Below, one piece after another: positions 6,568 through 32,760 of a DNA stretch of 64,000 nucleotides. Every line of letters starts with the position of its first letter. Position 1 is the first letter of the stretch. The notes under the pieces are model-generated. The model was not told the origin of the DNA. It searched no databases and saw only the letters and a program-made list of their open reading frames with translations. This DNA comes from Bolinopsis microptera (Eukaryota; Ctenophora; Tentaculata; Lobata; Bolinopsidae): positions 25,447,799-25,511,798 of the forward strand of contig NC_087072.1 in NCBI RefSeq assembly GCF_026151205.1, in the 5' to 3' direction. The position numbers and the translations under genes were made by a program.

Positions 6568-6574
6568 CCTATTT

Positions 6575-8477: not shown

Positions 8478-8540
8478 TGAAAAGCACTACAAATCCACTA
8501 CAAAAATCAAGGAAACGTGCTCTCGAGTGTCAACTGGCAA

Positions 8541-9021: not shown

Positions 9022-9078
9022 CTAACTACCGGACACTTGCAGAGAGCTCAGCACCGTACGCTCATTCTCAGTTAGCGC
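9022..9078 (-). CDS. IPO9: IPO9 exon 15 (C terminus)
   Basis: 18 codons plus TAG, ALTENERTVLSSLQVSGS, after acceptor ATTACAG. It matches the short conserved end of importin-9. Confidence 0.85.
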   Translation of the reverse strand, partial: ALTENERTVLSSLQVSGS

Positions 9079-12000
9079 CTGTAATGGTGAAATAGTGAAA
9101 TATTGCAGAGAAATAGTGAAATATTGCAGAGAAATAGTGAAATATTGCAGATAAATAGGGAAATATTGCAGAGAAATAGCGAAATATTGCCGAGAAATAG
9201 TGAAATATTGCAGATAAATAGTGAAATTGACAGAGATTTAGCGAAATTTACAAATATTTGGTGAAATTTACAAAGATTTAGTGTAATTTACAAAGATTTG
9301 GTGTAATTTACAATGATTTGATGTAATTTACAAAGTGATGGTAGTGTCAACGGTGTTAAAGGTGATCCAGCAAGTGTTAAAGGTGTTAAAGGTGACCCAG
9401 CAAGTGTTAAAGGTGTTAAAGGTGATCCAGCAAGTGTTAAAGGTGATCCAGCAAGTGTTAAAGGTGTTAAAGGTGATCCAGCAAGGTGTTAAAGGTGATC
9501 CAGCAAGTGTTAAAGCTTTAAAGGTGTTAAAGGTGATCCAGCAAGTGTTAAAGCTTTAAAGGTGTTAAAGGTGATACAGCAAGTGTTAAAAGTGTTAAAG
9601 GTGTTAAAGGTGATACAGCAAGTGTTAAAGGTGTTAAAGGTGTAATAGAAGAAGTAACTACCAGACAGAGCTGATTGTAGGTGTTATGAGTGGACAGCTG
9701 AGTTAGGAACTGTTGGAGATGACTGTGTAGATCTACTTCGTTCAGTGGGTCGTCTTTAGTGTCTTCGTCCTGAATAATTTCATAAATATACACTAATATA
9801 CATATTAATAATTATACACATTAGTGTTGATGTATATTACACATTAGTGCTGATGTATATTACACATTAGTGTTGATGTACATTACACATTAGTATTAAT
9901 GTACATTATACATTAACGCTTACACGCCGATCAGTGACTTGTATATAACCAGTTAATTAATTAATCAGCTAATTGTTGATAATTAACGAGTTAGTAAACC
10001 TCATCATCGTCATCTCCCAACATATGAGCAAGTTGAGCGATAGAAACGAACTGAGTTTCCACATCCTCCTCCTCCTCATCATCCTCCTCGTCACTAATGT
10101 CTCCGTTCCTCTCTGCTTCTAATTCCTCCAGCACGTTACCTGTAATTAAGTACCTTACTGGACACTATTTCCTCGGATGTAACTGTAATGACTCGCTGTG
10201 TATCTGGTTAGTGCAGGTGCCTATAGGGGGTGTAGGGAACCCCCCCCCCCCCCAGCTCAGATGTATGATCTAGTGAAGTAGTAGGGAGTAGTGTAATTCA
10301 CCTGATCTCACGTAATGAGTACAGGTGGTATATCCTAAACAGGAAGAATTAAATAGAATTTAACCGATATTATATCCACAGATATCCGGTTTAAAGTAAT
10401 TTCCTAGCATATTATACTCTAGTAGCAGGGTGTAGTAGGATATTAGCTTCAGAATTTACGTGATGATCTAACTGATTTATCAACATCTAATTACGTTAAC
10501 TACTTCATCTAATGATATCATTATACCTAAACTTATCGGTATTCCAACTTATCATTACAACTTACATTTCAACTACACGACTCTGTGAACATTCCAGAGA
10601 GAAATGTAAAACTAGAATGTATTGAGAAATGTAAAACTAGTACAATGTATTTGTCAACAAAAATTAAATTGATTTAGAAAATAATATTTTGGTAAATTTT
10701 TTTGACCCCTTACCCCCCCCCCCCCCCCCCCTGGCCTTAACACTATACACACTACACTCACTACACACTTTAGATTTGTTTGGAGAGGCGAATCATTCAC
10801 AGTTTAGGCTCTTGAAATCTTCGAATTAAAAATCATCTTGAGAGAACCTCCTCAAATTATTTGTTATATAGTAGTGTTGAAAGTATTAAACACACTACAC
10901 ACTATATAGTACACTATATAGTACACCCCAGTAATTCTTCCCGCCATTTAAAGAAGCGGCAACCAGCTTAGTGATTTACACGGCTTACAGTGTAGCACTA
11001 TATTATATATACACGTAGAAATCAACAGTTGACATACGCCACTTCTAGCTTTCTATCTGCACATTAGAGGGAGAAATAACGCAGAGCAAGTTAGATACAG
11101 GGTGAGTGAAAAAAACACTACACTTTGTAATTTAATAATTTAAATTAGAAAGCTTATCTCAACCTTTCTGAAAATTTCTAGTCAATAAGTCTGGACCTTT
11201 TCCTGATAGTAGCCGAAGAGTTTTTAAGAATCGGCCAAATATTTTTTCCACAATCAGCAACCCCTTGGAATACCCATTTAGAAATCCTTGCATTTCTCAA
11301 TTTAACCCTAATATTCGGTTATCTAATTAGGACTCCAAATAAAAATATATGGTATTCTGAATGTCGATTTACCGCGCCCCAATTTACCACAAACCCCGAT
11401 AATCGATATACCGCGGTCATCTCCTTTCCCCTAAATAGGGCTTAACATGTATAATGTAAACAAACAAACCCCGATTTACCGCGGATGCATCGGATGTTTC
11501 CTTTCCCCCAAACCCCGCTGTAAATCGGGGTTTTACTGTACATGTCAATATGATATCTACTTGCAAAGTAACGGCTCATGATTGTGTAACATTAAAACTA
11601 ACCGAACTCCTGTACGAGTATCTTGAATATCTTGACAGTGATAGGTATCATAGTGGGACCCTGTTGAGCTTTAGTGGAACGTGTAATCCTCCCCCCTTCT
11701 AGCGATATCTCCTCATCAGATACCATTATGTGAGTGAGGGGTGAATCCTGGGCCAGGAGGTGGGGCAGGAACTTAGTGAGGGCTATTACTGCTACCTTAG
11801 TTTCATACTCCCCTGTAAACATCTCCTGGATCTCACACCTGGAAATAGATTTATATTATATTATAGTATTATATAAGTACTTTATATTACACCTGGCAGG
11901 GAAATAGTTTTATATTATATTATATAAGTACTTTATATTATACTAGAAAGCCCGTGATCACAGTTTACCTAATTTGTGGGCGGTCGTACATTATACATTT

Positions 12001-15000
12001 TTATACAGCAGAAATAATTTTTTCAGTTATAGTAGAGATTATATTTAAGTACTAAGTACTTTATATTATAATATTATATAAGTACTAAGTACTTTAAATA
12101 TTATATTAGCTGAATTTAAAATACACGTGTATAGTGTATACTTTATATTATAGTACTTTATATTATATTAGCTGAATTTAAAATACACGTGTATTTTAAA
12201 AGCTCCTGCTAAAACAAACTTTTCGTATCACTTATATGTATTTTTCTCCTGTATTTGCCGAATTTTTTCGAAAAATACGGGAAATGTTATAATTAATCTG
12301 TTTTAAAGCTAGGGTCCAACACTCGAAACTGCAAATGTAAGTAACCCTAACAAACCTAACAAAGTAACAAACCATGATTTTAGAACGAAGACGAGACCGT
12401 TTTCTCCAGATGGTGTGTTGATGGACTGAAGGAAGGACATGGAACCTTCTAGATCGTGGTTAAAGAGCTTAATAAATACTACTAACAGGCTCTGCTGGAT
12501 TGTAGGTGACTCACTGAAAGTTAACTATGATAAAGTGAAACAATAAACAATTCTAATAGTGAACAATTCAAACAGTGAACAATTGAAACAGTGAACAATT
12601 GAAACAGTGAACAATTGAAACAGTGAACAATTGAGACAGTGTCCAGTGAACAAGTAACAAATAATATGTCTGAACAAATAAGTGGTTATAACTGCTTACT
12701 GCGCGCGATCTCATTGAGAAGTGTTGAATATTACTATAGTATACAATAGTTAGTGTTAAATGTGCAGTTAGAATTGCTCAGTGCATAAAACAAGGTTACC
12801 AGTTTAAGGTTCTACACATGTCATCAATTATTTTCATAGTAGTAACCGTGTATTAGTAATTGTGATACATTTTTATCATCATTTTAACTTTTACTTAACG
12901 TTATATAAACGTCACATCTTACACTAAATTGATAAAATTAGGGTATTTAAATACAGTGATAAAATACCACAAAAAAATATACCAAAAAAAGTATCGAACA
13001 CATATTAGGATGCAGTATATTAACAATTAAATCCCCCCCCCCCGGCCCCCATATGTGACATATTAATTATTAAGGTAGATCCCCCCCCCATATAATGCGT
13101 GACATATTAACAATTAAGATCCCCCTTATGCGATTATGCGATAAACGTACCATTTAGTGAGTTTGTTAAGAACAGCTTGCAGGATCTTACCATTTAGTGA
13201 GTTTGTTAAGAACAGCTTGCAGGATCTTACCATTTAGTGAGTTTGTTAAGAACAGCTTGCAGGATCTTACCATTTAGTGAGTTTGTTAAGAACAGCTTGC
13301 AGGATCTTACCATTTAGTGAGTTTGTTAAGAACAGCTTGCAGGATCTTACCATTTAGTGAGTTTGTTAAGAACAGCTTGCAGGATCTTACCATTTAGTGA
13401 GTTTGTTAAGAACAGCTTGCAGGATCTTACCATTTAGTGAGTTTGTTAAGAACAGCTTGCAGGATCTGGTTGATGTTGAGAGCTGCTCCAGCGTGTTTAA
13501 TAAGACTGGATACCAATCTACCGGAGTAAAGAGCCCCATACTCGCTCATTTCCGGGTCTAACATCTTAGCAATGAGCTGCATAGTGTACTCCATACCAGT
13601 TATACCATTAATAGTTAGAGCGGTGACTTGCTGGAATCCCAGCGCGAGACACGCCCGCACACACTCCCCGCCACTCTGCAGGATAGCTGTACTGTCCTTC
13701 ACACACCCTATTGTAAGAGCCATCGCGGCCGGGAACACTTCCTTAATATACACCTGGGGGAGGGGACATTAGTGAGGTATACACCTGGGGGAGGGGAGAT
13801 TAGTGAGGTATACACCTGGGGGAGGGGAGATTAGTGAGGTATACACCTGGGGGAGGGGAGATTAGTGAGGTATACACCTGGGGGAGGGGAGATTAGTGAG
13901 GTATACACCTGGGGGAGGGGAGATTAGTGAGGTATACACCTGGGGGAGGGGAGATTAGTGAGGTATACACCTGGGGGAGGGGAGATTAGTGAGGTATACA
14001 CCTGGGGGAGGGGAGATTAGTGAGGTATACATCTGGGGGAGGGGAGATTAGTGAGGTATACACCTGGGGGAGGGGAGATTAGTGAGGTATACACCTGGGG
14101 GAGGGGAGATTAGTGAGGTATACACCTGGGGGAGGGGAGATTAGTGAGGTATACACCTGGGGGAGGGGAGATTAGTGAGGTATACACCTGGGGGAGGGGA
14201 GATTAGTGAGGTATACACCTGGGGGAGGGGAGATTAGTTAGGTATACACCTGGGGGAGGGGAGATTAGTGAGGTATACACCTGGGGGAGGGGAGATTAGT
14301 GAGGTATACACCTGGGGGAGGGGAGATTAGTGAGGTATACACCTGGGGGAGGGGAGATTAGTGAGGTATACACCTGGGGGAGGGGAGATTAGTGGGGTAT
14401 ACACCTGGGGGAGGGGAGATTAGTGAGGTATACACCTGGGGGAGGGGAGATTAGTGAGGTATACACCTGGGGGAGGGGAGATTAGTGAGGTATACACCTG
14501 GGGGAGGGGAGATTAGTGAGGTATACACCTGGGGGAGGGGAGATTAGTGAGGTATACACCTGGGGAGGGGAGATTAGTGAGGTATACACCTGGGGGAGGG
14601 GAGATTAGTGAGGTATACACCTGGGGGAGGGGAGATTAGTGAGGTATACACCTGGGGGAGGGGAGATTAGTTAGGTATACACCTGGGGGAGGGGAGATTA
14701 GTGAGGTATACACCTGGGGGAGGGGAGATTAGTGAGGTATACACCTGGGGGAGGGGAGATTAGTGAGGTATACACCTGGGGGAGGGGAGATTAGTGAGGT
14801 ATACACCTGGGGGAGGGGAGATTAGTGAGGTATACACCTGGGGGAGGGGAGATTAGTGGGGTATACACCTGGGGGAGGGGAGATTAGTGAGGTATACACC
14901 TGGGGGAGGGGAGATTAGTGAGGTATACACCTGGGGGAGGGGAGATCAGTGAGGTATACACCTGGGGGAGGGGAGATTAGTGAGGTATACACCTGGGGGC

Positions 15001-18000
15001 GGGGAGATTAGTGAGGTATACACCTGGGGGAGGGGAGATTAGTGAGGTATACACCTGGGGGAGATGTGAGATTAGTGAGGTATACACCTGGGGGAGGGGA
15101 GATTAGTGAGGTATACACCTGGGGGAGATGTGAGATTAGTGAGGTATACACCTGGGGGAGGGGAGATTAGTGAGGTATACACCTGGGGGAGGGGAGATTA
15201 GTGAGGTATACACCTGGGGGAGGGGAGATTAGTGAGGTATACACCTGGGGGAGATGTGAGATTAGTGAGGTATACACCTGGGGGAGGGGAGATTAGTGAG
15301 GTATACACCTGGGGGAGGGGAGATTAGTGAGGTATACACCTGGGGGAGGGGAGATTAGTGAGGTATACACCTGGGGGAGGGGAGATTAGTGAGGTATACA
15401 CCTGGGGGAGGGAAGATTAGTGAGGTATACACCTGGGGAGGGGAGATTAGTGAGGTATAAACCTGGGGGAGGGGACATTAGTGAGGTATACACCTGGGGG
15501 AGGGGAGATTAGTGAGGTATACACCTGGGGGAGGGGACATTAGTGAGGTATACACCTGGGGGAGGGGAGATTAGTGAGGTATACACCTGGGGGAGGGGAG
15601 ATTAGTGAGGTATACACCTGGGGGAGGGGAGATTAGTGAGGTATACACCTGGGGGAGGGGAGATTAGTAAGGTATACACCTGGGGGAGGGGAGATTAGTG
15701 AGGTATACACCTGGGGGAGGGGACATTAGTGAGGTATACACCTAGGGGAGGGGAGATTAGTGGGGTATACACCTGGGGGAGGGGAGATTAGTGAGGTATA
15801 CACCTGGGGGAGGGGACATTAGTGAGGTATACACCTGGGGGAGGGGAGATTAGTGAGGTATACACCTGGGGGAGGGGAGATTAGTGAGGTATACACCTGG
15901 GGGAGGGGAGATTAGTGAGGTATAAACCTGGGGGAGGGGACATTAGTGAGGTATACACCTGGGGGAGGGGAGATTAGTGAGGTATACACCTGGGGGAGGG
16001 GAGATTAGTGAGGTATACACCTGGGGGAGGGGAGATTAGTGAGGTATACACCTGGGGGAGGGGAGATTAGTGAGGTATACACCTGGTGGAGGGGAGATTA
16101 GTGAGGTATCAGGTATACACCTGGGGGAGGGGAGATTAGTGAGGTATACACCTGGGGGAGGGGAGATTAGTGAGGTATACACCTGGGGGAGGGGAGATTA
16201 GTGAGGTATACACCTGGGGGAGGGGAGATTAGTGAAGTATACACCTGGGGGAGGGGAGATTAGTGAAGTATACACCTGGGGGAGGGGAGATTAGTGAGGT
16301 ATACACCTGGTGGAGGGGAGATTAGTGAGGTATCAGGTATACACCTGGGGGAGGGGAGATTAGTGAGGTATACACCTGGGGGAGGGGAGATTAGTGAGGT
16401 ATACACCTGGGGGAGGGGAGATTAGTGAGGTATACACCTGGGGGAGGGGAGATTAGTGAAGTATACACCTGGGGGAGGGGAGATTAGTGAAGTATACACC
16501 TGGGGGAGGGGAGATTAGTGAGGTATACACCTGGGGGAGGGGAGATTAGTGAGGTATACACCTGGGGGAGGGGAGATTAGTGAGGTATACACCTGGGGGA
16601 GGGGAGATTAGTGAGGTATACACCTGGGGGAGGGGAGATTAGTGAGGTATACACCTGGGGGAGGGGAGATTAGTGAGGTATACACCTGGGGGAGGGGAGA
16701 TTAGTGAGGTATACACCTGGGGGAGGGGAGATTAGTGAGGTATACACCTGGGGGAGGGGAGATTAGTGAGGTATACACCTGGGGGAGGGGAGATTAGTGA
16801 GGTATACACCTGGTGGAGGGGAGATTAGTGAGGTATACACCTGGGGGAGGGGAGATTAGTGGGGTATACACCTGGGGGAGGGGAGATTAGTGAGGTATAC
16901 ACCTGGGGGAGGGGAGATTAGTGAGGTATACACCTGGGGGAGGGGAGATTAGTGAGGTATACACCTGGGGGAGGGGAGATTAGTGAGGTATACACCTGGT
17001 GGAGGGGAGATTAGTGAGGTATCAGGTATACACCTGGGGGAGGGGAGATTAGTGAGGTATACACCTGGGGGAGGGGAGATTAGTGAGGTATACACCTGGG
17101 GGAGGGGAGATTAGTGAGGTATACACCTGGGGGAGGGGAGATTAGTGAAGTATACACCTGGGGGAGGGGAGATTAGTGAAGTATACACCTGGGGGAGGGG
17201 AGATTAGTGAGGTATACACCTGGGGGAGGGGAGATTAGTGAGGTATACACCTGGTGGAGGGGAGATTAGTGAGGTATACACCTGGGGGAGGGGAGATTAG
17301 TGAGGTATACACCTGGGGGAGGGGAGATTAGTGAGGTATACACCTGGGGGAGGGGAGATTAGTGAGGTATACACCTGGTGGAGGGGAGATTAGTGAGGTA
17401 TACACCTGGGGGAGGGGAGATTAGTGGGGTATACACCTGGGGGAGGGGAGATTAGTGAGGTATACACCTGGGGGAGGGGAGATTAGTGAGGTATACACCT
17501 GGGGGAGGGGAGATTAGTGAGGTATACACCTGGGGGAGGGGAGATTAGTGAGGTATACACCTGGGGGAGGGGAGATTAGTGAGGTATACACCTGGGGGAG
17601 GGGAGATTAGTGAGGTATACACCTGGGGGAGGGGAGATTAGTGAAGTATACACCTGGGGGAGGGGAGATTAGTGAAGTATACACCTGGGGGAGGGGAGAT
17701 TAGTGAGGTATACACCTGGGGGAGGGGAGATTAGTGAGGTATACACCTGGGGGAGGGGAGATTAGTGAGGTATACACCTGGGGGAGGGGAGATTAGTGAG
17801 GTATACACCTGGGGGAGGGGAGATTAGTGAGGTATACACCTGGGGGAGGGGAGATTAGTGAGGTATACACCTGGGGGAGGGGAGATTAGTGAGGTATACA
17901 CCTGGTGGAGGGGAGATTAGTGAGGTATACACCTGGGGGAGGGGAGATTAGTGGGGTATACACCTGGGGGAGGGGAGATTAGTGAGGTATACACCTGGGG

Positions 18001-21000: not shown

Positions 21001-24000
21001 ACTTGGGGTCAATTATGCATTTGCAAACAAATATACACTCATTTGGATAGCAAACCATTATCTGAAGTTCATATTGTGGTTAATTTTCACTTTAATAGAT
21101 GCCTTGTTCAACAGCCTAGCAAGTAATATAGCCCTTTTAACCACTTTTATGACAACATTTCTTGATAACTTTTATCAAGACCCTTCAAATGTCCTTTGTT
21201 GACCATAAAATGTTGACTAAAATCATTAATATTAATAATGTTTTGATTGGTGGTTAACAACAAATTTTGACATTTTAACCATCTTTTTAGCACTTTTTAC
21301 AAATATTAACCACCTCAAATCAACCATACTATTAAATTGCACATTTGTGATAAAAAATTATCATCCATGCACAAATGAACAACCACCACTATACATCTAT
21401 AATCAGAGCAATATTTATAGCTCACCGTTCATCTTCAATTTAACCACCATTAGGACCACAAAATGCCCCCCATGAGGTTTGAAAACTTTTGTGATAGTTG
21501 CACCATGATATGATCTCAATATAATGACTACTCAGTTCATAATATCATATCTCAAAATGGTGGTTAACCCTAAAACTGGTATTTTAACCACCATAGCATA
21601 GTGGCCACATAGATGACCCATTAACCACAATTATTCAACATAACCGTACTGCAGTGTTTTGTGCACCAGAAAAACATCACTCCAACATTGAGATTAACCA
21701 CAATGAGCTGCAACATAATGTTGAAGTCAACATACTCAAATTGTGTGAAAAAAAGTCAATGTCCACCAAGTTTCCCCAGATTTGCTGCTATTGCTGAGGA
21801 GGGTTAGGGTTAGGGACCAGATAAAGGGGGGTTAGGGACCAGATATAGGGGGGTTATGGACCAGGTATAGGGGGTTAGGGTTAGGGACCAGATATAGGGG
21901 GTTAGGGTTAGGGACCAGATATAGGGGGGTAAGGGACCAGATATAGGGGGTTAGGGACCAGATATAGGGGGGTTAGGGACCAGATATAGGGGCCAGGGCC
22001 GGGGGGTAAGGGATGAAATATTATACTGAGAGGGAGTTAGGGGATATGGACCATATAAATGGTTCGTTGTGGAAAAATTGAGTACTTTCAACCTGATTTA
22101 ATTAATTATTTAAGTTTCAACCTGATTTAATTGATTGTTTAAGTTTCAACCTGATTTAATTGATTGTTTAAGTTGCAACCTGACTGACGACGAAAGTGTC
22201 ACTAGCGTGTTTAACGAACAGCTCGACCAGGAACGTGTTGACTTTGTCTGCCTCTACAGCTACAATATCAGGTCTGAAGCCCACACTGACTCTGAGGGCG
22301 TCTAGACAGAGCATGAGGAGGTCTCCCTCCATATTACCTGCCAGGTCAAACAGAGAGGGGATTATAAGCTCCATTGACTTGTGCAATACCTGAAACAGTA
22401 CATACTTGTTTGTAATTTTCTACGTAAAGTTTGCAGTGGTGATATCAAATTCCCACTGAAATGCGAAACCGTATAATAAAAATGGCGGTGTAGAATAAAA
22501 AAGTATTACCAGTTTCTCTTCTGGCTCAGTGAGCTCAGCACACATAGCGTAGACCCCCTTCATAGCACCTATCATAACTGCAGCAGGAGTGCCTGGTTTG
22601 AGAGCAGTGCAGGTGTGTTCTAGCAGCGTGTTTAGAGACTCTTCCGAGGGGAGGCGCTTAATGTAGCTCCCTGTCATCCATATTAGTCTCCCTCGTAGAT
22701 AAGGCTTATCTACATTTAGTCCGGGCAACACAACCGTGTTGTAGAAAGCTCCAAAGTTGAAATCCACCTTCTTAGCTTCCAAACACTCCTCCACCACGTC
22801 TCCACTGATGTTCATAGCTGTTGCACACGCTTCATATAACTTCCAGTTATACCCCTCCGCGATATTCCCGCAGGAGGAGATGTGCCGCGTGATGGCGTTC
22901 ATGAGCGCTTCTACGTAGGACGTCTTCAGTTCAGTAGCCAGATCCATGAGCAGCTCCATAGCTCCTGTTCGTACTGTGTAGTTCATGCTATCCTCGTCAT
23001 CATCCTCCACGTACTTCTCTGGGTCTTCATTCCACAACTCCATCTAGCAGAGTTACCATAACGTTAACAATTACTGTACAATCTAACTCCATCTAGCAGA
23101 GTTACCATAACGTTAACAATTACTGTACAATCTAACTCCATCTAGCAGGTATACCATAACGTTAACAATTACTGTACAATCTAACTCCATCTAGCAGGTA
23201 TACCATAACGTTAACAATTACTGTACAATCTAACTCCATCTAGCAGAGTTACCATAACGTTAACAATTACTGTACAATCTAACTCCATCTAGCGGGTATA
23301 CCATAACGTTAACAATTACTGTACAATCTAACTCCATCTAGCAGGTATACCATAACGTTAACAATTACTGTACATTCCACAACTCCATCTAGCAGGTATA
23401 CCATAACGTTAACAATTACTGTACATTCCACAACTCCATCTAGCAGGTATACCATAACGTTAACAATTACTGTACAATCTAACTCCATCTAGCAGGTATA
23501 CCATAACGTTAACAATTACTGTACAATCTAACTCCATCTAGCAGGTATACCATAACGTTAACAATTACTGTACAATCTAACTCCATCTAGCAGGTATACC
23601 ATAACGTTAACAATTACTGTACAATCTAACTCCATCTAGCAGAGTTACCATAACGTTAACAATTACTGTACAATCTAACTCCATCTAGCAGGTATACCAT
23701 AACGTTAACAATTACTGTACAATCTAACTCCATCTAGCAGGTATACCATAACGTTAACAATTACTGTACAATCTAACTCCATCTAGCAGGTATACCATAA
23801 CGTTAACAATTACTGTACAATCTAACTCCATCTAGCAGGTGTACCATAACGTTAACAATTACTGTACATTCCACAACTCCATCTAGCAGAGTTACCATAA
23901 CGTTAACAATTACTGTACAATCTAACTCCATCTAGCAGGTATACCATAACGTTAACAATTACTGTACAATCTAACTCCATCTAGCAGGTATACCATAACG

Positions 24001-27000
24001 TTAACAATTACTGTACAATCTAACTCCATCTAGCAGAGTTACCATAACGTTAACAATTACTGTACAATCTAACTCCATCTAGCAGGTATACCATAACGTT
24101 AACAATTACTGTACAATCTAACTCCATCTAGCAGAGTTACCATAACGTTAACAATTACTGTACAATCTAACTCCATCTAGCAGGTATACCATAACGTTAA
24201 CAATTACTGTACAATCTAACTCCATGTAGCAGGTATACCATAACGTTAACAATTACTGTACAATCTAACTCCATCTAGCAGGTATACCATAACGTTAACA
24301 ATTACTGTACAATCTAACTCCATCTAGCAGGTATACCATAACGTTAACAATTACTGTACAATCTAACTCCATCTAGCAGGTATACCATAACGTTAACAAT
24401 TACTGTACAATCTAACTCCATCTAGCAGAGTTACCATAACGTTAACAATTACTGTACAATCTAACTCCATCTAGCAGAGTTACCATAACGTTAACAATTA
24501 CTGTACAATCTAACTCCATCTAGCAGGTATACCATAACGTTAACAATTACTGTACAATCTAACTCCATCTAGCAGGTATACCATAACGTTAACAATTACT
24601 GTACATTCCACAACTCCATCTAGCAGGTATACCATAACGTTAACAATTACTGTACAATCTAACTCCATCTAGCAGGTATACCATAACGTTAACAATTACT
24701 GTACAATCTAACTCCATCTAGCGGGTATACCATAACGTTAACAATTACTGTACAATCTAACTCCATCTAGCAGGTATACCATAACGTTAACAATTACTGT
24801 ACAATCTAACTCCATCTAGCAGAGTTACCATAACGTTAACAATTACTGTACAATCTAACTCCATCTAGCGGGTATACCATAACGTTAACAATTACTGTAC
24901 AATCTAACTCCATCTAGCAGGTATACCATAACGTTAACAATTACTGTACATTCCACAACTCCATCTAGCAGGTATACCATAACGTTAACAATTACTGTAC
25001 AATCTAACTCCATCTAGCAGGTATACCATAACGTTAACAATTACTGTACAATCTAACTCCATCTAGCGGGTATACCATAACGTTAACAATTACTGTACAA
25101 TCTAACTCCATCTAGCAGGTATACCATAACGTTAACAATTACTGTACAATCTAACTCCATCTAGCAGGTATACCATAACGTTAACAATTACTGTACAATC
25201 TAACTCCATCTAGCAGGTATACCATAACGTTAACAATTACTGTACAATCTAACTCCATCTAGCAGGTATACCATAACGTTAACAATTACTGTACATTCCA
25301 CAACTCCATCTAGCAGGTATACCATAACGTTAACAATTACTGTACATTCCACAACTCCATCTAGCAGGTATACCATAACGTTAACAATTACTGTACATTC
25401 CACAACTCCATCTAGCAGGTATACCATAACGTTAACAATTACTGTACAATCTAACTCCATCTAGCAGGTATACCATAACGTTAACAATTACTGTACAATC
25501 TAACTCCATCTAGCAGGTATACCATAACGTTAACAATTACTGTACAATCTAACTCCATGTAGCAGGTATACCATAACGTTAACAATTACTGTACAATCTA
25601 ACTCCATCTAGCAGGTATACCATAACGTTAACAATTACTGTACAATCTAACTCCATCTAGCAGGTATACCATAACGTTAACAATTACTGTACAATCTAAC
25701 TCCATGTAGCAGGTATACCATAACGTTAACAATTACTGTACAATCTAACTCCATCTAGCAGGTATACCATAACGTTAACAATTACTGTACAATCTAACTC
25801 CATCTAGCAGGTATACCATAACGTTAACAATTACTGTACAATCTAACTCCATCTAGCAGGTATACCATAACGTTAACAATTACTGTACAATCTAAATTCT
25901 AGCAGGTATACCATAACGTTAACAATTACTGTACAATCTAACTCCATCTAGCAGGTATACCATAACGTTAACAATTACTGTACAATCTAACTCCATCTAG
26001 CAGGTATACCATAACGTTAACAATTACTGTACAATCTAACTCCATCTAGCAGGTATACCATAACGTTAACAATTACTGTACAATCTAACTCCATCTAGCA
26101 GGTATACCATAACGTTAACAATTACTGTACAATCTAACTCCATCTAGCAGAGTTACCATAACGTTAACAATTACTGTACAATCTAACTCCATCTAGCAGG
26201 TATACCATATAAATAAATATTATTAAATACCGATACCTATTTTGAAATCGGAGGGAATAATAGGTATTTATAGGTATTTTACCAAAGATCGTCTAGGGCA
26301 GCTAAAAGTTACTTTTTTGGACGTTCCAGAAGATTGTGAGCAACATTAATTTTTGAAATTTTAGGTGAAAAATGAAAATTTCATTAAAAGATTTTTACTT
26401 GAGAATATTTTTAATTGTTGTTTAATTGTTGTTCAAAATGTTCAGAAACTTCTATATTGAAGAGATAGAAAAGTAAATAACGGGGGGTAATACCTGGTAT
26501 TCAGGTATAGACAGGTAGGTGATGGGATAGAAAAGTAAATAACGGGGGTAATACCTGGTATTCAGGTATAGACAGGTAGGTGATGAGATAGAAAAGAACG
26601 TCAGGTAACACTTTCCTTATCATAGCCTTGTATTTCTTACGTTCCGTTAAAGCCTGTATAAACTCGAATATGGCCTGTACCAGACTCCCGAACCCCATCT
26701 CAGATCCGTCACTATCCACCTGAACATGTGAATAGTTTAGGGATTAGATATAGAGGGTGTCAAATGTCAATAGTTTAAGATTTTAGGAGAAGGCTATAGT
26801 GAAACCAAAAGACAATTGAAGTGAAATGTAAAATAGCTAACATCGTCCTCTACATAGTCAGGGTTGTTAACAACTGTAGTGATGTGATTCTCTGCATTCT
26901 TGGTGAGAAGGGTCCACAGCACTGGGAGAGCACTCGATACCTGTAGAAGTTGGTTGATATTTGACCAATTTATGGGCCAAAATCGATCAAATTTGGTGAG

Positions 27001-30000
27001 TATGCCCAAATATGGGCATATAGTTTTTAGCTCATAACTCAGTCCAATCTTAATGAAAATTCATATATTAGGACGCAATGAAACTACCGGACCACGATGT
27101 ATGGGGACTTGCCACCCCATGGCAACATTAAAATATATCGACTCAGTTACATCGTGATGTACGAGTTTAGGGCACCACTAGCCCTAAAGGGGGGGGCACA
27201 ATAGAGCATACTGACTACTAGATAGTACTCACCTTATCTCCCATCTGTTTAGGGAAAGTTTGTACGAGTTTAGATAGGAAGTTAACACACTCAGTCTGTA
27301 GTTTGTAATCCTGTCTGACAGAAACAGTAGCTCCTATCAGGGATATAGTGGTGTCCACCAGACCTGGCAGTATGGGGAACAGTAGGTTCTCATTAGCAGC
27401 GTGGTCCACTGTGTCCATGTGGCTGATTAGAGTGGTAAACACTCCGAATATGGAGAGGACGCGGGCACGTGTAGCTGGCCCGAACGTCTCCGTTTGGAAG
27501 AGTTGGATAAGCCGGGGGAAGAGGACTGGGGCCACTGTGTAGACCTGAAGAGTTAATAGTACTTAACCATCTGAGGTACCGAGAATGATAGATTACAAGT
27601 ACTCGGCAATAAACTACAGTACCTACCGAAGTAAAAAATATCGCATAATTTTTGTGTTTCGAGCTAGGAAGGATGTAGAAACTTTTCCAATGTTGGAAAA
27701 TGTTCGCAATGACCAAATTTATATATAACTATAACCCTTATAGTTATAACTATAAGGCTTATGATTCATAATATGCTCGTAAATGCTTAAAACTTGAACT
27801 TGAAAAACTTTATCGATAACTATTGTGGTCATATTTGGAATTCGATATTTGCATAATATATTTAAGTACCATTTTCGGGCTTTAGTATTGACGATATATT
27901 TTCAAGCATATGTTATTTTTTAGCTCAGTATTCATGATATTTTCTGGGATGACTAGTTCAAACACTGCTGAGTATAAGATTTATCTTAAAAGCGGTGTTA
28001 TTAAATTTCAATTTATTATTATTATTATTATTTTTACACACAGCGTGGTTCACATTACCTGACTGTCAGTAATGTCACTAGCCAGCTCAGAGAGAACCTT
28101 CATAACTCCATGCACTTGGTTAGGGTCCCCAGTTCCCATCATACTCAGCAGCTGGTCAAACAGACCCGTCCAGTTGTCCGGGAAATCTACACAAGCTATC
28201 TCTGATACTACAGCTGCCACAGAGCTCCTGAAACCAAAACTCAGTCATTAACCTCGTTACTATCTCACATTACATACCAAAATACTCATGACACCCCGCC
28301 CCCCCCCCCCCCACATATCAGGGCAGCATGTGCCCCCCCCCCCCCCAGATATACGCCCCCCCCCCCCCCGCAGATATACGCATCAGGGCAGCATGTGTCC
28401 CCCCCCCCCCCCAGTATCAAGGCAGCATGTGTCCCCCCCCCCCCCCAGCATGTTTCCCCCCCCCCCCAGATATCAGGGCAGCATGTGTCACACGCCCCCT
28501 CCCCCCCCCCAAATATACGCCCCCCCCCCCCCCCAGATATATGTATAATCAGGGCAGCATGTGTCCCCCCCCCCAGTATCAGGGCAGCATGTGTCCCCCC
28601 CCCAGTATCAGGGCAGCATGTGTCCCCCCCCCCAGTATCAGGGCAGCATGTGTCCCCCCCCCCCCAGTATCAGGGCAGCATGTGTCCCCCCCCCAGTATC
28701 AGGGCAGCATGTGTCCCCCCCCCCCAGTATCAGGGCAGCATGTGTCCCCCCCCCCAGTATCAGGGCAGCATGTGTCCCCCCCCCCCAGTATCAGGGCAGC
28801 ATGTGTCCCCCCCCCAGTATCAGGGCAGCATGTGCCCCCCCCCCCCCCCAGTATCAGGGCAGCATGTGTCCCCCCCCCCAGTATCAGGGCAGCATGTGTC
28901 CCCCCCCCCCCAGTATCAGGGCAGCATGTGTCCCCCCCCCCCCCCCAGTATCAGGGCAGCATGTGTCCCCCCCCCCCAGTATCAGGGCAGCATGTGTCCC
29001 CCCCCCCCAGTATCAGGGCAGCATGTGTCCCCCCCAGTATCAGGGCAGCATGTGTCCCCCCCCCCCAGTATCAGGGCAGCATGTGTCCCCCCCCCAGTAT
29101 CAGGGCAGCATGTGTCCCCCCCCCCAGTATCAGGGCAGCATGTGTCCCCCCCCCCCCAGTATCAGGGCAGCATGTGTCCCCCCCCCAGTATCAGGGCAGC
29201 ATGTGTCCCCCCCCCCCAGTATCAGGGCAGCATGTGTCCCCCCCCCCCCCAGTATCAGGGCAGCATGTGTCCCCCCCCCCCAGTATCAGGGCAGCATGTG
29301 CCCTCCCCCCCCCAGATATCAGGGCAGCATGTCACATGTGTCCACAGACCACAGTTAGCTTTGCTTCAACACGAGCTGACAATGCATTCCAGTGGATAGT
29401 ATGTGAGCAACTCCTCTAACCTGATTTTACTAAGCCCCCCCCCCCCCCCCCCCCCCCCCCCCAGATATACTGTATAGTATCTGAGCAACTCCTCTAACCT
29501 GATTTTACTAAGCCCCCCCCCCCACCCCCCCCCCCCCCACCCCCCCCCCCCCCCCCCCCCCCCCAGATATCAGGGCAGCATGTCACATGTGTCCACAGAC
29601 CACAGTTAGCTTTGCTTCAACACGAGCTGACAATGCATTCCAGTGGATAGTATCTGAGCAACTCCTCTAACCTGATTTTACTAAGCCCCCCCCCCCACCC
29701 CCCCCCCCCCCCCCCACCCCCCCCCCCCCCCCCCCCCCCCCCCCAGATATCAGGGCAGCATGTCACATGTGTCCACAGACCACAGTTAGCTTTGCTTCAA
29801 CACGAGCTGACAATGCATTCCAGTGGTTACTGGATAGTATCTGAGCAACTCCTCTAACCTGATTTTACTAAGCCCCCCCCCCCCCCCCCCCCCCCCTCCA
29901 GATATACTGGATAGTATCTGAGCAACTTCTCTAACCTGATTTTACTAAGGCTGTCACCCAGACCTGGGAGAATGTTATTCTTGACGACCTCTTTTGTAGC

Positions 30001-30342
30001 TGTGTGTGGACAGTCCTGCCAGGAACTGTCTGCAAACTGTTTGAGTAGTACACCTGCCATCTGACGCACTGATAGAGGGGCGTCCTGAAGTTATCAAGTA
30101 TAAATGAGATGTCTTGAGAAGGAACAAATTTCAATTGTCTTAAGATATATTTCCCTTGACGAGATTAGAAAAATAAAGAAATACAAAAACTGACTAACCT
30201 GTCGGAGTAGAATTGACAGAAGGCTGGTGGCATAGTCTGGATGCGGTTTGAAGACATTGAGTTGCTCCTGGGCTGCATCTTGTTCACTTTTATTAGCCGA
30301 GAGGGCCTGAGATATGAGGGGAGCTATTTGCTCAACAGACAT
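9022..30342 (-). CDS. IPO9: importin-9 (IPO9), complete, 15 coding exons
   Basis: Fifteen minus-strand exons join to 2,997 bases: 998 codons plus TAG (human IPO9 is about 1,041). Exons: 30199-30342, 29936-30084, 28059-28227, 27233-27544, 26842-26940, 26555-26719, 22510-23043, 22180-22389, 18637-18846, 13431-13753, 12373-12513, 11603-11838, 10000-10139, 9662-9769, 9022-9078. All junctions are GT/AG and keep phase. The product is a karyopherin-beta HEAT-repeat receptor for nuclear import, whose family members carry core histones and ribosomal proteins and bind Ran-GTP. Family marks in order: VRQMAGVLLKQF in the importin N-terminal domain, QVHGVMKVLSEL, VDSDGSEMGF, YVEDDDEDSMNYTVR, LQSGGECVRACLA, YSGRLVSSLIKHAG, FTGEYETKVAV with GGRITRSTKA, an acidic loop (about 910-945), and the LTENERTVLSSL end. 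Several introns are expanded by minisatellites built from the gene's own splice sites. Confidence 0.93.
9085..9245. repeat. 24-bp minisatellite (GTGAAATATTGCAGAGAAATA) in IPO9 intron 14
   Basis: About six copies directly next to the exon 15 acceptor, then a diverged GTGAAATTTACAAAGATTTG series to 9335. Confidence 0.85.
9345..9640. repeat. minisatellite of GTTAAAGGTGATCCAGCAA units in IPO9 intron 14
   Basis: Composite 12- and 18-bp units (GGTGTTAAA, GGTGATCCAGCAAGTGTTAAA) end about 20 bases inside the exon 14 donor. Frames through it on either strand are artefacts. Confidence 0.88.
9662..9769 (-). CDS. IPO9: IPO9 exon 14
   Basis: 36 codons, residues 945-980, DEDTKDDPLNEVDLHSHL to YNQLCL, between ATTCAG and GTAGTT. 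Reading on past the donor enters the intronic minisatellite. Confidence 0.9.
9815..9915. repeat. 25-bp minisatellite ACATTAGTGTTGATGTATATTAC in intron 13
   Basis: About four imperfect tandem copies; nothing else is recognised in this intron. Confidence 0.8.
10000..10139 (-). CDS. IPO9: IPO9 exon 13 (acidic loop)
   Basis: Residues 898-944, GNVLEELEAERNGDIS then a D/E-rich stretch and AQLAHMLGDDDDE, between TTACAG and GTTTAC. Acidic tracts at this position are typical of importin-9. Confidence 0.88.
11365..11543. mobile_element. possible decayed pogo/Tigger-type MITE end
   Basis: The right edge ends ATCGGGGTTTTACTG followed by TA; reversed, this is the CAGTAAAACCCCGATTT type of end typical of pogo/Tigger elements with TA targets. 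Internal copies of AAACCCCGATTTACCGCGG support a related repeat. The left end is not recognisable, so the call is tentative. It lies in IPO9 intron 12. Confidence 0.3.
11603..11838 (-). CDS. IPO9: IPO9 exon 12
   Basis: Residues 819-897, WCEIQEMFTGEYETKVAVI to KILVQEF plus one base, with the GGRITRSTKAQQG basic segment. It lies between TTCCAG and GTTAGT. Confidence 0.92.
11829..11940. repeat. duplicated 3' splice site region of IPO9 exon 12
   Basis: The real acceptor (minus strand TCTATTTCCAG/GTGTGAG) is followed about 55 bases upstream in the intron by a second ACTATTTCCCTGCCAG/GTGTAAT in the same AT-rich context (11889-11940): one extra copy of the junction. Confidence 0.65.
12373..12513 (-). 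CDS. IPO9: IPO9 exon 11
   Basis: Residues 772-818: the split Cys codon, then ESPTIQQSLLVVFIKLFNH to FVLKS plus two bases, between TTTCAG and GTTTGT. It is too short and ATG-poor to stand out as a frame, and is placed by family order and phase. Confidence 0.88.
12550..12645. repeat. 16-20-bp minisatellite GTGAACAATTGAAACA in intron 10
   Basis: About six tandem copies roughly 35 bases upstream of the exon 11 acceptor. Confidence 0.85.
13151..13470 (-). repeat. 40-bp array: eight copies of the exon 10 end plus its 5' splice site
   Basis: Unit starts are at 13151, 13191, 13231, 13271, 13311, 13351, 13391 and 13431, the last being the real exon end. On the minus strand each unit carries the last 32 coding bases and ends CTAAATG/GTAAGATC, a strong donor; the outermost copy has GTACGT instead. 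Reading past the first donor gives TGG TAA at once, so only the exon-proximal donor preserves the protein. Confidence 0.93.
13431..13753 (-). CDS. IPO9: IPO9 exon 10
   Basis: 107 codons plus two bases, residues 665-771, VYIKEVFPAAMALTIG to VLNKLTK. It contains LQSGGECVRACLA and YSGRLVSSLIKHAG, among the most family-specific segments. Its acceptor is amplified about 155-fold upstream and its donor 8-fold downstream. Confidence 0.95.
13754..18612 (-). repeat. 31-bp minisatellite: about 155 copies of the exon 10 3' splice site
   Basis: On the minus strand the unit contains TCTCCCCTCCCCCAG/GTGTATACC. This is the exon 10 junction itself (polypyrimidine tract, CAG, then the first exon bases GTGTATA). 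It fills IPO9 intron 9 almost completely. Variants (GGTGGAGG, GAGATGTGAG, GTATCAGGTATAC) recur in the same order several times, as near 16086-16345 and 16999-17040, showing block-wise copying. As 31 is not a multiple of 3, use of upstream copies shifts frame and meets TAA within about three units. The plus strand is G-rich in tracts of 4-5 G. Confidence 0.95.
18637..18846 (-). CDS. IPO9: IPO9 exon 9
   Basis: 70 codons, residues 595-664, VNDVLITLAEIPECRG to RKTPPPLPD, between CTCTCAG and GTTAGT. It includes an acidic QSEEDEEDMR stretch. Confidence 0.9.
18850..19520. repeat. 23-bp minisatellite GGTTAGGGACCAGATATAGGGG, left block
   Basis: About 28 copies begin roughly 10 bases from the exon 9 acceptor. 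On the sense (minus) strand the unit reads CCCCCTATATCTGGTCCCTAACC and carries a branch-point-like CTAAC. The array is interrupted at 19521 by a DNA element and resumes at 21801. Confidence 0.93.
19525..21796. mobile_element. 2.27-kb non-autonomous DNA element with 28-bp TIRs, 4-bp TSD
   Basis: The left end CAGCAATAGCAGCAAATC (continuing TGGGGAAACTT) is matched by the exact reverse complement at 21769-21796. AGGA flanks both sides (19521-19524 and 21797-21800). It splits the 23-bp minisatellite, so it inserted after that array formed. The interior has no long frame. TTAACCA(C/T) or its reverse complement is scattered more than 15 times, possible transposase-binding subterminal sites. Two (CG)n-rich segments occur near 19710 and 19885. 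Families with 4-bp duplications include Sola, Chapaev and Ginger; I cannot assign one. Confidence 0.75.
19708..19920. repeat. tandem pair with alternating (CG)n tracts
   Basis: GTGCGCGCGCGCGCGTACTTAACCA occurs near 19711 and again near 19884 inside the DNA element, in a roughly 173-base repeat. Long CG alternation is rare in this AT-rich window. Confidence 0.7.
21801..22012. repeat. 23-bp minisatellite, right block
   Basis: About nine copies continue the 18850-19520 array beyond the inserted element. Several are fused as GGGTTAGGGTTAGGGACC, a short telomere-like TTAGGG doublet. Confidence 0.9.
22080..22180 (-). repeat. 28-bp repeats carrying the exon 8 donor
   Basis: Minus-strand CAG/GTTGAAACTTAAACAAT occurs about three times downstream of the real donor CAG/GTTGCAACTTAAACAAT, so the exon 8 5' splice site is copied within the intron. 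Confidence 0.8.
22180..22389 (-). CDS. IPO9: IPO9 exon 8
   Basis: 70 codons, residues 525-594, VLHKSMELIIPSLFDLAG to DTFVVSQ, between TTTCAG and donor GTTGCA. The donor neighbourhood is repeated about three more times at 22083-22179. Confidence 0.9.
22510..23043 (-). CDS. IPO9: IPO9 exon 7 (largest)
   Basis: 178 codons, residues 347-524, MELWNEDPEKYVEDDDEDS to EPEEKL. Its acceptor TGCTAG and first bases are the seed of the 49/51-bp array that fills the upstream intron. The exon encodes several HEAT repeats. Confidence 0.92.
23044..26204 (-). repeat. 49/51-bp minisatellite: about 64 copies of the exon 7 3' splice site
   Basis: The minus-strand unit reads ATGGAGTTAGATTGTACAG ... TGGTATACCTGCTAG. 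The exon 7 junction is CTGCTAG/ATGGAGTTGTGGAATG, so every unit carries the acceptor plus the first exon bases. The 51-bp variants (TTCCACAAC on the plus strand) keep even more of the exon sequence. The array occupies most of intron 6. Two junction types, CTCTGCTAG and TACCTGCTAG, are interspersed. In 51-bp runs (25230-25460) the frame stays open, but only as a repeat artefact. Confidence 0.95.
26205..26490. other. remainder of IPO9 intron 6
   Basis: AT-rich unique sequence between the acceptor array and the duplicated exon 6 end. No feature is recognised. Confidence 0.4.
26461..26585 (-). repeat. 61-bp duplication of the IPO9 exon 6 end and donor
   Basis: TACCTGGTATTCAGG recurs at 26491 and 26552. 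Each copy has the last 34 exon bases and about 27 intron bases, giving two identical donors CCAG/GTATTAC. Using the distal donor would append VLPPLF... and meet a stop. Confidence 0.9.
26555..26719 (-). CDS. IPO9: IPO9 exon 6
   Basis: 55 codons, residues 292-346, beginning with the family-typical VDSDGSEMGFGSL and ending LSIPEYQ, between TTCAG and GTATTA. The last 34 bases plus the donor are duplicated 61 bases downstream. Confidence 0.92.
26842..26940 (-). CDS. IPO9: IPO9 exon 5
   Basis: 33 codons, residues 259-291, VSSALPVLWTLLTK to PDYVEDD, between CTACAG and GTTAGC. Confidence 0.9.
27233..27544 (-). CDS. IPO9: IPO9 exon 4
   Basis: 104 codons, residues 155-258, VYTVAPVLFPRLIQLF to FPKQMGDK, between CTTCAG and GTGAGT; HEAT-repeat helices. 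Confidence 0.9.
27545..28058. other. IPO9 intron 3
   Basis: AT-rich. A TATAACTATAA palindrome cluster lies near 27720-27760 and an (ATT)n run near 28010-28030. No gene is seen. Confidence 0.4.
28059..28227 (-). CDS. IPO9: IPO9 exon 3
   Basis: Completes codon 98, then SSVAAVVSEIACVDFPDNW to LASDITDSQ (through residue 154), between TTTCAG and GTAATG. It is not visible as an ATG-started frame. Confidence 0.9.
28288..29330. repeat. poly-C minisatellite C(7-14)AGTATCAGGGCAGCATGTGT in IPO9 intron 2
   Basis: Roughly 33 copies of a 20-base core separated by C runs of varying length. Because C-run length varies, all three plus-strand frames stay open as Pro-rich peptides; these are not genes. In the transcript (minus) sense the runs are poly-G. 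Confidence 0.95.
29334..29935 (-). repeat. repeats of the IPO9 exon 2 end and donor with long poly-C spacers
   Basis: The exon 2 junction (minus strand CTTAGTAAAATCAG/GTTAG) recurs at 29416-29434, 29494-29512, 29667-29685 and 29854-29872 beyond the real one near 29931-29949. Copies sit in a larger repeat that includes ACAGACCACAGTTAGC and C runs of up to about 30. Confidence 0.9.
29936..30084 (-). CDS. IPO9: IPO9 exon 2
   Basis: Residues 49-97, DAPLSVRQMAGVLLKQF to SLSKI plus two bases, between CTTCAG and GTTAGA. It completes the importin-beta N-terminal domain. Confidence 0.9.
30199..30342 (-). CDS. IPO9: IPO9 exon 1 (start codon)
   Basis: Residues 1-48, MSVEQIAPL to ILLRQ, donor GTTAGT. 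The ATG lies 7 bases after a TTTCAG that may be the acceptor of a 5' UTR intron. This junction with its ATG is copied three more times just upstream. Confidence 0.85.
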
Positions 30343-30476
30343 GCTGCTACTGAAATGTATAAAGGTCAGGTGACATGCTGCTACTGAAATGTATAAATGT
30401 CAGGTGACATGCTGCTACTGAAATGTATAAAGGTCAGGTGACATGCTGCTACTGAAATGTAAAAAGGCCAGGTGAC
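30341..30476 (-). repeat. 34-bp tandem repeat carrying the exon 1 acceptor and ATG
   Basis: Four copies of a unit whose minus strand reads CATTTCAGTAGCAGCATGTCA. The innermost copy is the real exon 1 start, so the putative 3' splice site and start codon have been copied upstream. Confidence 0.85.
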
Positions 30477-32760
30477 AGGTTGAGGCCGAATTTAGTGCTG
30501 ATCAGAGCTTATGAGTAATTGCATTCCACCATTTCAAATTCCACAGTTTCCTCTTCTCCCTGGAATATGCTACCCTGATCATTATGAGCCGAAATCATTG
30601 TTACGATATCCGGCCACGTACCTTTCAAACTACTTCTTTAGCAGCCGGATTAAATGGGGGGGGGGGGGGGGGGGGGGCAATGGCATAATATGGACAATTT
30701 TATGCCATTTTAAAATTTAAAATGTAAAAAACCCACAATTTTTTACAAAATTTTAACCTAGTTAAGATTTAAGTTAAGGACGAAATAATTTAAATCAAAT
30801 ATTCATCTAGAATCTAAATAACATTTCGAACACCTAATAGACAATTTTTGCCCTTTTATTGTATTTCGACCTTCAACAATTTTCGAGCTCGAACACAAGG
30901 GTCCGACCTTGTATGTTTTGTAAAATTTTTAAAAAAAATGTATTTTAAATTATATCTTAAATTTGGTACCAAACGTTTTGCCTTTCCAAGCTGAAAATAA
31001 TCCAGTAAAAATAAGTTTTCTACCCCGATATGGGGCAGGCCTCCCCTATAATGCAATAGGAGTTCGGAAGCGGGGAGACTGCCTTTCAATGTATGTATCG
31101 AGAATGACTCGGGCCGAAAATTTTCTAAGCAAAAAATTTTTAAAATTTTCCTGGAAACTACTTTTCCCCAAAGTTCATGTCACCCTGATCATTATTAGCC
31201 GAAAATATTTTTCAGGACCTAGCCCTCGAGAATTTTTCCTGGAAATTAATGAAATTTCTGATTGATATCCCGCCAATTACCTTCTAAACTGTTGGGCTCC
31301 GTGCAGACCACCCTACCTGTGGCTAAAGCTCTAATATACAAAAACAATACATAGCTGGGTGAGAAGTGTGTGGCGTTTCCTTAGCCCTGTGGACCACATA
31401 AAGGCTAGCTTATATTTAACATCTGAACCGAAATTTACAGTACTTTCTTGACGAATACAGGAAAGAAAAAATTTTTTTTAGGAAAGAAAAATTTTTATTT
31501 ACCACAAAACAATCAATACATAATGTTATATTCATAAATAAATTCAAATTTCAATTTCAAACACATATACAGTACGCCGCGCACACAGCCACAATTTTCA
31601 ATTGTTCAGAAATTCGTAGGTCAGCTGTAGTCGCTGCGCACAGGATCTATTTAATTGTTATCTTACAATTACATGTCGCATTTCTTAATTACTAGAGCCA
31701 AAATTTCAGAAGCAAAATAATTTAAAACATATTTCTGTCGTTCACGCAGTACAGGCCGTGAGCACTGCGATCTAATTAATAGATAGGATATAAAATAGTA
31801 TAGTGAAATATCTACAAACTTTACATAAACAAATCTAGGAGAACTCAAAGCTCGTCTTCTGAGGAATGTAGGAATGAGATTGAAGGAAACGTTTTCAGTT
31901 TTGCAGTTTTTAAGTTCAAGATGCTGGTAAATTGTAACCCAATTTTTTTAAAGATTAGATTAGATTAAGAATAATGAAATAAAAATCATCACTAGTTTAA
32001 ACATTCTTCCTGATTTCTTCATTTTTAGAACTGTAAAAATTTTACAGCCTTCGTCATTAAAAAAAACAAAATTTTTTAACATAATTGTGTAACAGTCGTC
32101 AACCAGGCCACTAAAATGAATTGCTATATAATAGGCGTATAGTTTATGTATATTGTGTAATAATCCCTCCGATTTTGATAAATTTTGTACCAAAAGGTGT
32201 CTAAAAATGTAAATATAACAATTTCATATTTAAGCAGAAATTCACTAAAAATGCTTTTTGCGGCGCTTGGTCACTGCGCGCACTTTTTCCGCGCAAATTT
32301 TTCAGTTTTTATAGCTTTTGGCTACAACGTCCACAGTTTTAGTAAATATTCAATATTTGGACCTGTGAATTTTTGAAACATTTTTGAAAAACTTGCTCCA
32401 GCTCCTTCAGATATTATAATTTTGGTACAAAAAGTTGCGTTTGACCAAGTTTATTACAATCCTGTACAAATTATTTCAAAAAATTTGATATTTTAGAAGT
32501 TATAGGTATTTTAAGCAAAACAATTATTCATTTTTCGTCCTTTTTACACACTTGCAATGCACAGGATAGGAGACCCACATAACAGGATAGGAGGCCCACA
32601 TTCAGTTTATATATTGCCATTTCTTAAAATTTAACAGTACTTTTATTCTATTTGCTAACGATACCAATATCTTCACCCGCGCAATATTTGCGTGGGTATC
32701 TATAGCGAGCACGTACGTTTATTCTTGGCCGATAATCTTTCATCCGACCCGTGACATAAC
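30477..32760. other. AT-rich intergenic region upstream of IPO9
   Basis: No coding region. It contains a run of more than 20 G near 30656, and a diverged repeat pair near 30570-30640 and 31180-31300 sharing CCCTGATCATTATKAGCCGAAA and GATATCCSGCC. The IPO9 promoter must lie here, but no motif can be supported. Confidence 0.4.

Follow-up and report, generated by a model that had tools for sequence, protein, structure and literature searches.

Mirage-like tandem arrays across exon–intron junctions in an importin-9 gene and other conserved genes of a ctenophore

Introduction

Does a gene whose introns repeat its own splice junctions call for a special way of duplicating DNA at exon edges? The question is raised by a window of 64,000 nucleotides (the whole stretch of DNA analysed here, C1:25447799-25511798 in an assembly of 264.65 Mb and 232 contigs), in which a single gene carries tandem copies of eight exon edges, with repeat units that reach from the exon into the adjacent intron. 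An earlier note on this DNA had argued that so many spanning arrays at one locus are unlikely by chance, that they point either to a junction-linked duplication mechanism, for example at G/C-rich tracts, or to tolerance of arrays only where a junction is kept, and that they are a candidate for a new phenomenon. Here, we combine a gene model, repeat searches, a second copy of the gene, a sample of other conserved genes and a random placement model to ask how much of this argument stands.

Results

Tandem arrays at eight exon edges of one gene

The gene (Table 1), which we take to be importin-9 (IPO9) on the strength of its match to human IPO9, has GT-AG introns throughout (14 of 14) in the model that we built. 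A self-written spliced aligner, given the C-terminal part of the human sequence as query, recovered the same 9 of these 14 introns, which were all it could test, and identity to the human protein was 28/58, 52/177 and 44/105 residues in three of ten exons.

Tandem repeats finder output (TRF, 66 rows for the window) and word counts place tandem copies at all eight edges named in the earlier note, in numbers near those claimed, with stricter word counts lower for the long arrays (57 at the exon 7 acceptor and 139 at the exon 10 acceptor). The exonic portion of the spanning units ranges from 4 to 42 bases. The 31-bp array at the exon 10 acceptor occupies almost the whole of intron 9, and the 8.0 copies of the 40-bp unit at the exon 10 donor are all identical. 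The duplication at the exon 12 acceptor lies under the TRF cut-off and has a local score of 56, whereas the highest score among 300 first-order Markov resamplings is 32.

The unit of intron 9 shows a CTAAT word and pyrimidines ahead of its AG (ACTAATGTCCCCTCCCCCAG), as does that of intron 5 of SF3B1, one of the other genes described below (ACTAATCTCTGTCAG); these words are possible branch points. One of the 13 spanning units listed has a length divisible by three, so that use of a wrong copy would almost always shift the reading frame. Upstream of exon 1, the repeated edge is acceptor-like and lies 7 bases upstream of the start codon (window 30350-30477). This putative splice acceptor could belong to a 5′UTR intron or could receive a trans-spliced leader, a type of leader reported to be frequent among ctenophores.

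Table 1 Features of the IPO9 gene in the window and junction-spanning arrays in other genes
Feature	Window position	Strand	Exonic bases or relation to the junction	Second IPO9 copy
IPO9 (importin-9) gene, 15 exons, 998 aa, ATG at 30342	9022..30349	minus
Upstream edge of exon 1, 34-bp array, 4.1 copies	30338..30477	minus	TTTCAGTAGCAGCATG, edge between	18.1 copies
Exon 2 donor, 5 copies	29400..29949 (start approximate)	minus	14 exonic bases; CTTAGTAAAATCAG, then GTTAGA	4 copies
Exon 6 donor, 61-bp array, 2.2-2.3 copies	26458..26596	minus	42 exonic bases	likewise 2.2-2.3 copies
Exon 7 acceptor, 49-bp array, 64.5 copies (TRF)	23036..26209	minus	8 exonic bases by TRF	43.5 copies
Exon 8 donor, 29-bp array, 3.4 copies	22086..22183	minus	only 4 exonic bases	2.3-2.4 copies
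Exon 10 acceptor, 31-bp array, 156 copies	13747..18616	minus	7 exonic bases	about 329 copies
Exon 10 donor, 40-bp array, 8.0 copies	13148..13467	minus	37 exonic bases	2.0 copies
Exon 12 acceptor, 54-bp duplication, two copies	11835..11946	minus	4 exonic bases	one copy
Intron 2, C-rich 24-34-bp arrays	28297..29332		exon 3 acceptor not crossed
Intron 8, 22-bp array, 30 copies	18859..19523		stops 12 bp short of exon 9 acceptor, no crossing
Intron 14, arrays filling the intron	9089..9643		about 11 bp from exon 15 acceptor, 18 bp from donor
SF3B1 intron 1 donor, 53-bp unit, at least 75 copies			array passes the end of the fetched piece
SF3B1 intron 4 acceptor, 38-bp unit, 9 copies
SF3B1 intron 5 acceptor, 128-bp unit, hand-set
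SF3B1 intron 11 acceptor, 58-bp units, about 40 copies, plus 430-bp repeat
ATP1A copy b intron 3 donor, 33-bp unit, 13 copies
ABCE1 intron 6 acceptor, 28-bp unit, 3 copies
ABCE1 intron 10 donor, 31-bp unit, 16 copies

A second copy of the gene with different array lengths

A genome search with IPO9 exon 7 gives a single further match (C1:25759650-25760183, protein 99% identical), which belongs to a second IPO9 copy 289 kb off on the same contig (C1:25736167-25771999). The fetched part of this copy holds exons 1 to 12, and window 8790-10640, with exons 13-15 and the 3′ flank, matches C1:25736167-25737933 (83% identical over the stretch). Arrays are present at seven of the eight edges in the second copy, six of them with a copy number that differs from the window, and the exon 12 acceptor is single. 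At the exon 1 edge, the second copy and the window have 18.1 and 4.1 repeats by TRF, and 10 and 4 by word count.

Over 582 codons (exons 5 and 7-12; exons 1-4, 6 and 13-15 were left out of the comparison), the copies differ by 33 synonymous and 3 amino-acid changes, an excess which suggests that the genes are under selection and that both copies would have been selected through most of their separate history. Four-fold sites differ at 21 of 276 positions (7.6%). Three exons of the second copy (2, 3 and 6) also contain 1-bp indels, and exon 4 has gained 3 bp relative to the window; these changes are either assembly errors or recent decay. The two copies are either haplotypes (a haplotig) or paralogues: a difference of 7.6% is large for two haplotypes, but ctenophores are also highly heterozygous, with a reported overall single-nucleotide value of 2% for Hormiphora.

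Three of the smaller cases have sequence at their edges that bears on how they began. The exon 12 acceptor in the second copy has GTGT at the exon start and again where the unit would start, the exon 6 donor array has the 10-bp word CTTTTCTATC on both flanks and between copies, and the exon 10 donor array has no common word at its unit ends. All three would fit ordinary small tandem duplications, and the difference at exon 12 is either a gain in one copy or a loss in the other. In intron 12, the second copy holds an array of roughly 25-bp units that is almost 5 kb long (C1:25737983-25742663), and the corresponding array of the window (10599-10651) is limited to about two copies.

Arrays that stop short of junctions and neighbouring repeats

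In the same gene, further arrays in introns 2, 8, 10, 11, 12, 13 and 14 cross no junction, and the earlier note omitted all of them (examples in Table 1). Apart from the count of 20 IPO9 arrays, the array counts given below treat the C-rich arrays of intron 2 and the exon 2 donor array as one.

The window is repeat-rich in other ways. Inside the 22-bp array of intron 8, whose unit is TTAGGG-like, lies an element of about 2.2 kb with inverted ends (AGCAATAGCAGCAAATCTGGGGAAACTT, window 19524-21806); in the second copy, the same array is uninterrupted and has about 61 copies. Two adjoining satellite arrays with a 184-185-bp unit lie close to the 3′ side of IPO9 in opposite orientations (window 4332-8478, 12.1 and 10.3 copies). 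Several long reading frames at window 32770-54130 are retroelement-like in appearance, and part of one of them has 97-100% identical stretches on many contigs.

Junction-spanning arrays in other conserved genes

As a control sample we used 21 genes in 23 pieces, with 240 introns accepted and 26 rejected, an intron being rejected if a flanking exon had less than 38% identity or fewer than 8 aligned residues. These are conserved genes, chosen from human proteins without prior knowledge of the repeats in them, in which the spliced aligner found the exons; most paralogous matches were left out, with GRP94 and a second ATP1A included, and the XPO1 and PRPF8 pieces are without most of their largest introns. 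For SF3B1, ATP1A and ABCE1, longer pieces were taken once arrays had turned up in them, and intron 10 of ABCE1 sits in such an extension.

Counting an array as junction-spanning if it contains at least 3 exonic bases, we found such arrays in 3 of the 21 genes, namely SF3B1, ATP1A and ABCE1 (Table 1), and none that pass the rule in the accepted introns of the remaining 18. A manual exception was made for the array of SF3B1 intron 1, which presumably spans its junction because the unit encodes the end of the adjoining exon. In ACLY, two arrays resemble spanning cases and are excluded by the rule: intron 8 (42-bp unit, 2 copies, 17 exonic bases) has a rejected flank and intron 12 has 2 exonic bases. 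Arrays that merely touch a junction (XPO1 intron 15, SF3B1 intron 2) are uncounted. A view of IPO9 as unique, drawn from the first ten genes (0 of 26 arrays spanning in 123 introns, 2.7 expected, P = 0.047 for a count this low), was dropped once SF3B1, ATP1A and ABCE1 had been seen.

Among arrays with long units (at least 25 bp) and a score of at least 100, 6 of 9 span a junction in IPO9, where the intron 2 donor copies were added to the spanning counts by hand, and 7 of 13 do so in the other genes. The resulting 13 spanning cases comprise 7 donors and 6 acceptors.

Junction spanning varies with unit length in this sample

The chance expectation comes from reducing every array to a single unit, which was then placed randomly over the collapsed intron, with crossings allowed. 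The cut-offs, that of 25 bp included, and the tests were chosen post hoc, and the P values are uncorrected for the number of tests. A coverage profile was set aside, as it misplaced units with long exon overlaps and counted 4 of 7.

Control introns have a median length of 200 bp (123 introns) and, because introns are this short, random units of 30-60 bp often reach an exon edge. Over all arrays with a unit of at least 10 bp and a score of at least 50, 13 of 87 are spanning and 13.3 are expected. The claim that spanning arrays are unlikely by chance thus fails, and the argument behind it has to be corrected: with 200-bp introns, repeat units will frequently reach an exon edge even if no special mechanism is at work.

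The same comparison differs by unit length. With units of at least 25 bp and scores of at least 100, 13 of 22 arrays are spanning versus 7.2 expected (P = 0.003), and, if intron length is limited to 300 bp, versus 8.7 (P = 0.04). IPO9 had been selected for its spanning pattern, and the long-unit count without it is 7 of 13 versus 4.0 (P = 0.04, or P = 0.16 with the cap at 300 bp); the controls minus SF3B1 intron 1 give 6 of 12 versus 3.2 (P = 0.05), and leaving out both IPO9 and SF3B1 gives 3 of 9 versus 2.0 (P = 0.29). Units of 10-24 bp were spanning in 0 of 60 arrays with a score of at least 50 (5.7 expected, P = 0.002) and in 0 of 19 with a score of at least 100 (2.2 expected, P = 0.08).

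Within IPO9 alone, 6 of 20 arrays are spanning versus 3.9 expected (P = 0.15), or 5 of 20 by TRF edges alone (P = 0.34), and the merged long-unit arrays give 6 of 9 versus 3.2 (P = 0.03), a value that becomes P = 0.11 if introns were no longer than 300 bp at array birth. The observation from which the earlier note set out holds for the arrays at all eight edges, but with the non-crossing arrays counted the excess in IPO9 is small.

Short units in the controls lie within 15 bp of an intron end in 17 of 54 cases, compared with 7.7 expected for placement inside introns (P = 0.0008) and 12.3 with crossings allowed (P = 0.07), and a mild preference of arrays for intron ends is possible. The standout feature is the dependence of spanning on unit length, not positions that defy chance. 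The modelled internal exons, 47,916 bases in all, contain one purely exonic array, an acidic low-complexity stretch of IPO9. Together with the short units (0 of 60) and the long ones (13 of 22 spanning), this is compatible with arrays being tolerated where they preserve a junction, the second of the two explanations put forward in the earlier note.

Discussion

A probable filtering of tandem duplications by splicing

We consider it roughly 65% probable that these are mirage-type minisatellites, produced by ordinary tandem duplication and filtered by splicing so that only units with a whole signal cross exon edges. Under this reading, duplications would start at more or less random places, through slippage or end joining, with ends that share 0 to about 10 bp, judging by three cases. 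Those inside coding exons would be eliminated by selection, and one that crosses an edge would survive if its unit carries the entire local splice signal, which for an acceptor unit must include what is needed upstream of the AG. The exon-adjacent copy would then keep the normal site and the remaining copies would turn into intron, in an array that, once formed, may grow and shrink fast. Units of less than about 25 bp would be incapable of carrying a whole signal.

The arrays, their positions, the differences in length between the two gene copies, the recurrence in other genes and, in this sample, the pattern with unit length are all observed directly. We infer the mutational step, the selection step and continued accurate splicing from the genomic sequence. 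No unit shorter than 25 bp crosses an edge in this sample, which fits the need for a whole signal and would equally fit a demand on the spacing of competing sites; at scores of at least 100, however, the lack of junction-crossing short units is non-significant, and the amphioxus units cited below also weigh against a strict limit. The long-unit excess at junctions is unpredicted by purely random seeding, unless introns were shorter at array birth.

That excess, which persists with introns capped at 300 bp and appeared in an earlier variant of the count (controls 7/14 versus 3.75, P = 0.036; IPO9 6/10 versus 2.8, P = 0.016), is what one would see if R-loops, template switching or common CAGGT-like words started duplications preferentially at exon edges. 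Both length classes also lie nearer to intron ends than placement inside introns predicts, and the exon 12 case involves the GTGT with which the exon begins. We nevertheless regard junction-linked mutation as unlikely, given the lack of a net excess across unit lengths, the 3 of 9 cases left once IPO9 and SF3B1 are removed, and the choice of IPO9 for its very pattern. Nor is unit GC high: the 13 units (six from IPO9, the exon 1 edge among them, and seven from other genes) have values between 0.24 and 0.55, compared with 0.44 for the region, which speaks against G/C-rich tracts as seeds. A junction-linked mechanism is not needed for a total that shows no net excess, and the modest long-unit excess leans on IPO9 and SF3B1.

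A further idea, which we hold to be less probable still, is that units are self-correcting: a unit with an AG/GT junction (the slash marking the exon edge) would itself be a GT...AG intron, and the leftover from a wrong copy would be removable by a second round of splicing. An AG before the donor or a GT after the acceptor occurs in 10 of the 13 spanning cases versus 6.6 expected (P = 0.046), a hint that wrong choices may be re-spliced, but the donor and acceptor tests are singly non-significant (P = 0.19 and 0.16), 3 of the 13 cases are without AG/GT, and the test was conceived after the units had been inspected. By far the least credible reading is that a long-read assembler made the copies or their numbers. 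The published assembly of what is probably this species was made with wtdbg, and the second copy, given its 1-bp indels, is perhaps poorly polished; against this stand the same units at the same edges in the two IPO9 copies, similar arrays in other genes on contigs C7, C10 and C13, and the exonic bases within the units.

A wider proposal, which we offer tentatively and on balance doubt, is that mirage arrays may be a general route of intron growth in a non-chordate animal, obeying a rule of whole-signal units of about 25 bp or more, preferably with AG/GT to let a mistaken choice be re-spliced, in which the spliceosome takes the exon-proximal one of up to about 330 near-identical sites. An intron that offers as many as hundreds of almost identical splice sites would in any case be a natural system for studying the choice of the spliceosome between equal sites. 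The two IPO9 copies document kilobase-scale growth or shrinkage of introns at modest sequence divergence.

Comparison with known systems

Ordinary intronic minisatellites (variable number tandem repeats) have comparable unit lengths and identity and equally rapid changes in copy number, and the arrays described here differ from them in that the unit takes in exon sequence and a splice site. Introner elements are one sequence dispersed as introns in many genes; the units here differ between junctions. In the Rogers model, introns are gained through tandem duplication of an AG/GT segment, as in a potato RdRp case (PMC4974935), and it shares with our arrays a tandem duplication with AG/GT that is removable by splicing. 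The donor of IPO9 intron 9 (GAT/GTTAGT; judged by eye, for this intron only) lies outside the repeat unit and is probably not repeat-derived, so that the repeats, unlike in the Rogers model, seem to lengthen existing introns. The passages on intronic minisatellites of C. elegans in PMC4039745 have no bearing on junction-spanning units.

The closest match are the mirages of amphioxus, which are tandem repeats across exon–intron boundaries in Adh3 and in the globins BflGb6 and BflGb9 (PMC3087553), and also in TnC and PGBD5 (PMC3902484). Mirages have AG/GT in many, not all, units and copy numbers that are unlike in two haplotypes (PMC3087553), reportedly leave splicing undisturbed (PMC3087553, PMC3902484) and, for Adh3, show somatic instability. 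These accounts agree with our arrays in a unit that spans the boundary, in affecting donor and acceptor edges, in variable copy number and in the frequency of AG/GT, and arrays of the same kind were thus known before, which refutes the idea of a new phenomenon.

The differences are ones of lineage, scale and unit length. The arrays here are from a lineage that is probably very distant from amphioxus, reach about 329 copies, compared with 6 and 3 in the globin example, and occupy up to eight edges within one gene. No unit below 25 bp crosses an edge in our sample, whereas the Adh3 units are quoted as 10-72 bp in PMC3087553 (2010). Among the listed titles and abstract openings of the open literature, with subscription papers and preprints outside this scope, we found no mirages outside amphioxus. 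The arrays described here belong to an already known kind, the mirages, in what is probably a new lineage and of unusual size, and they extend mirages from amphioxus to a ctenophore (comb jelly), to several conserved genes and to large arrays.
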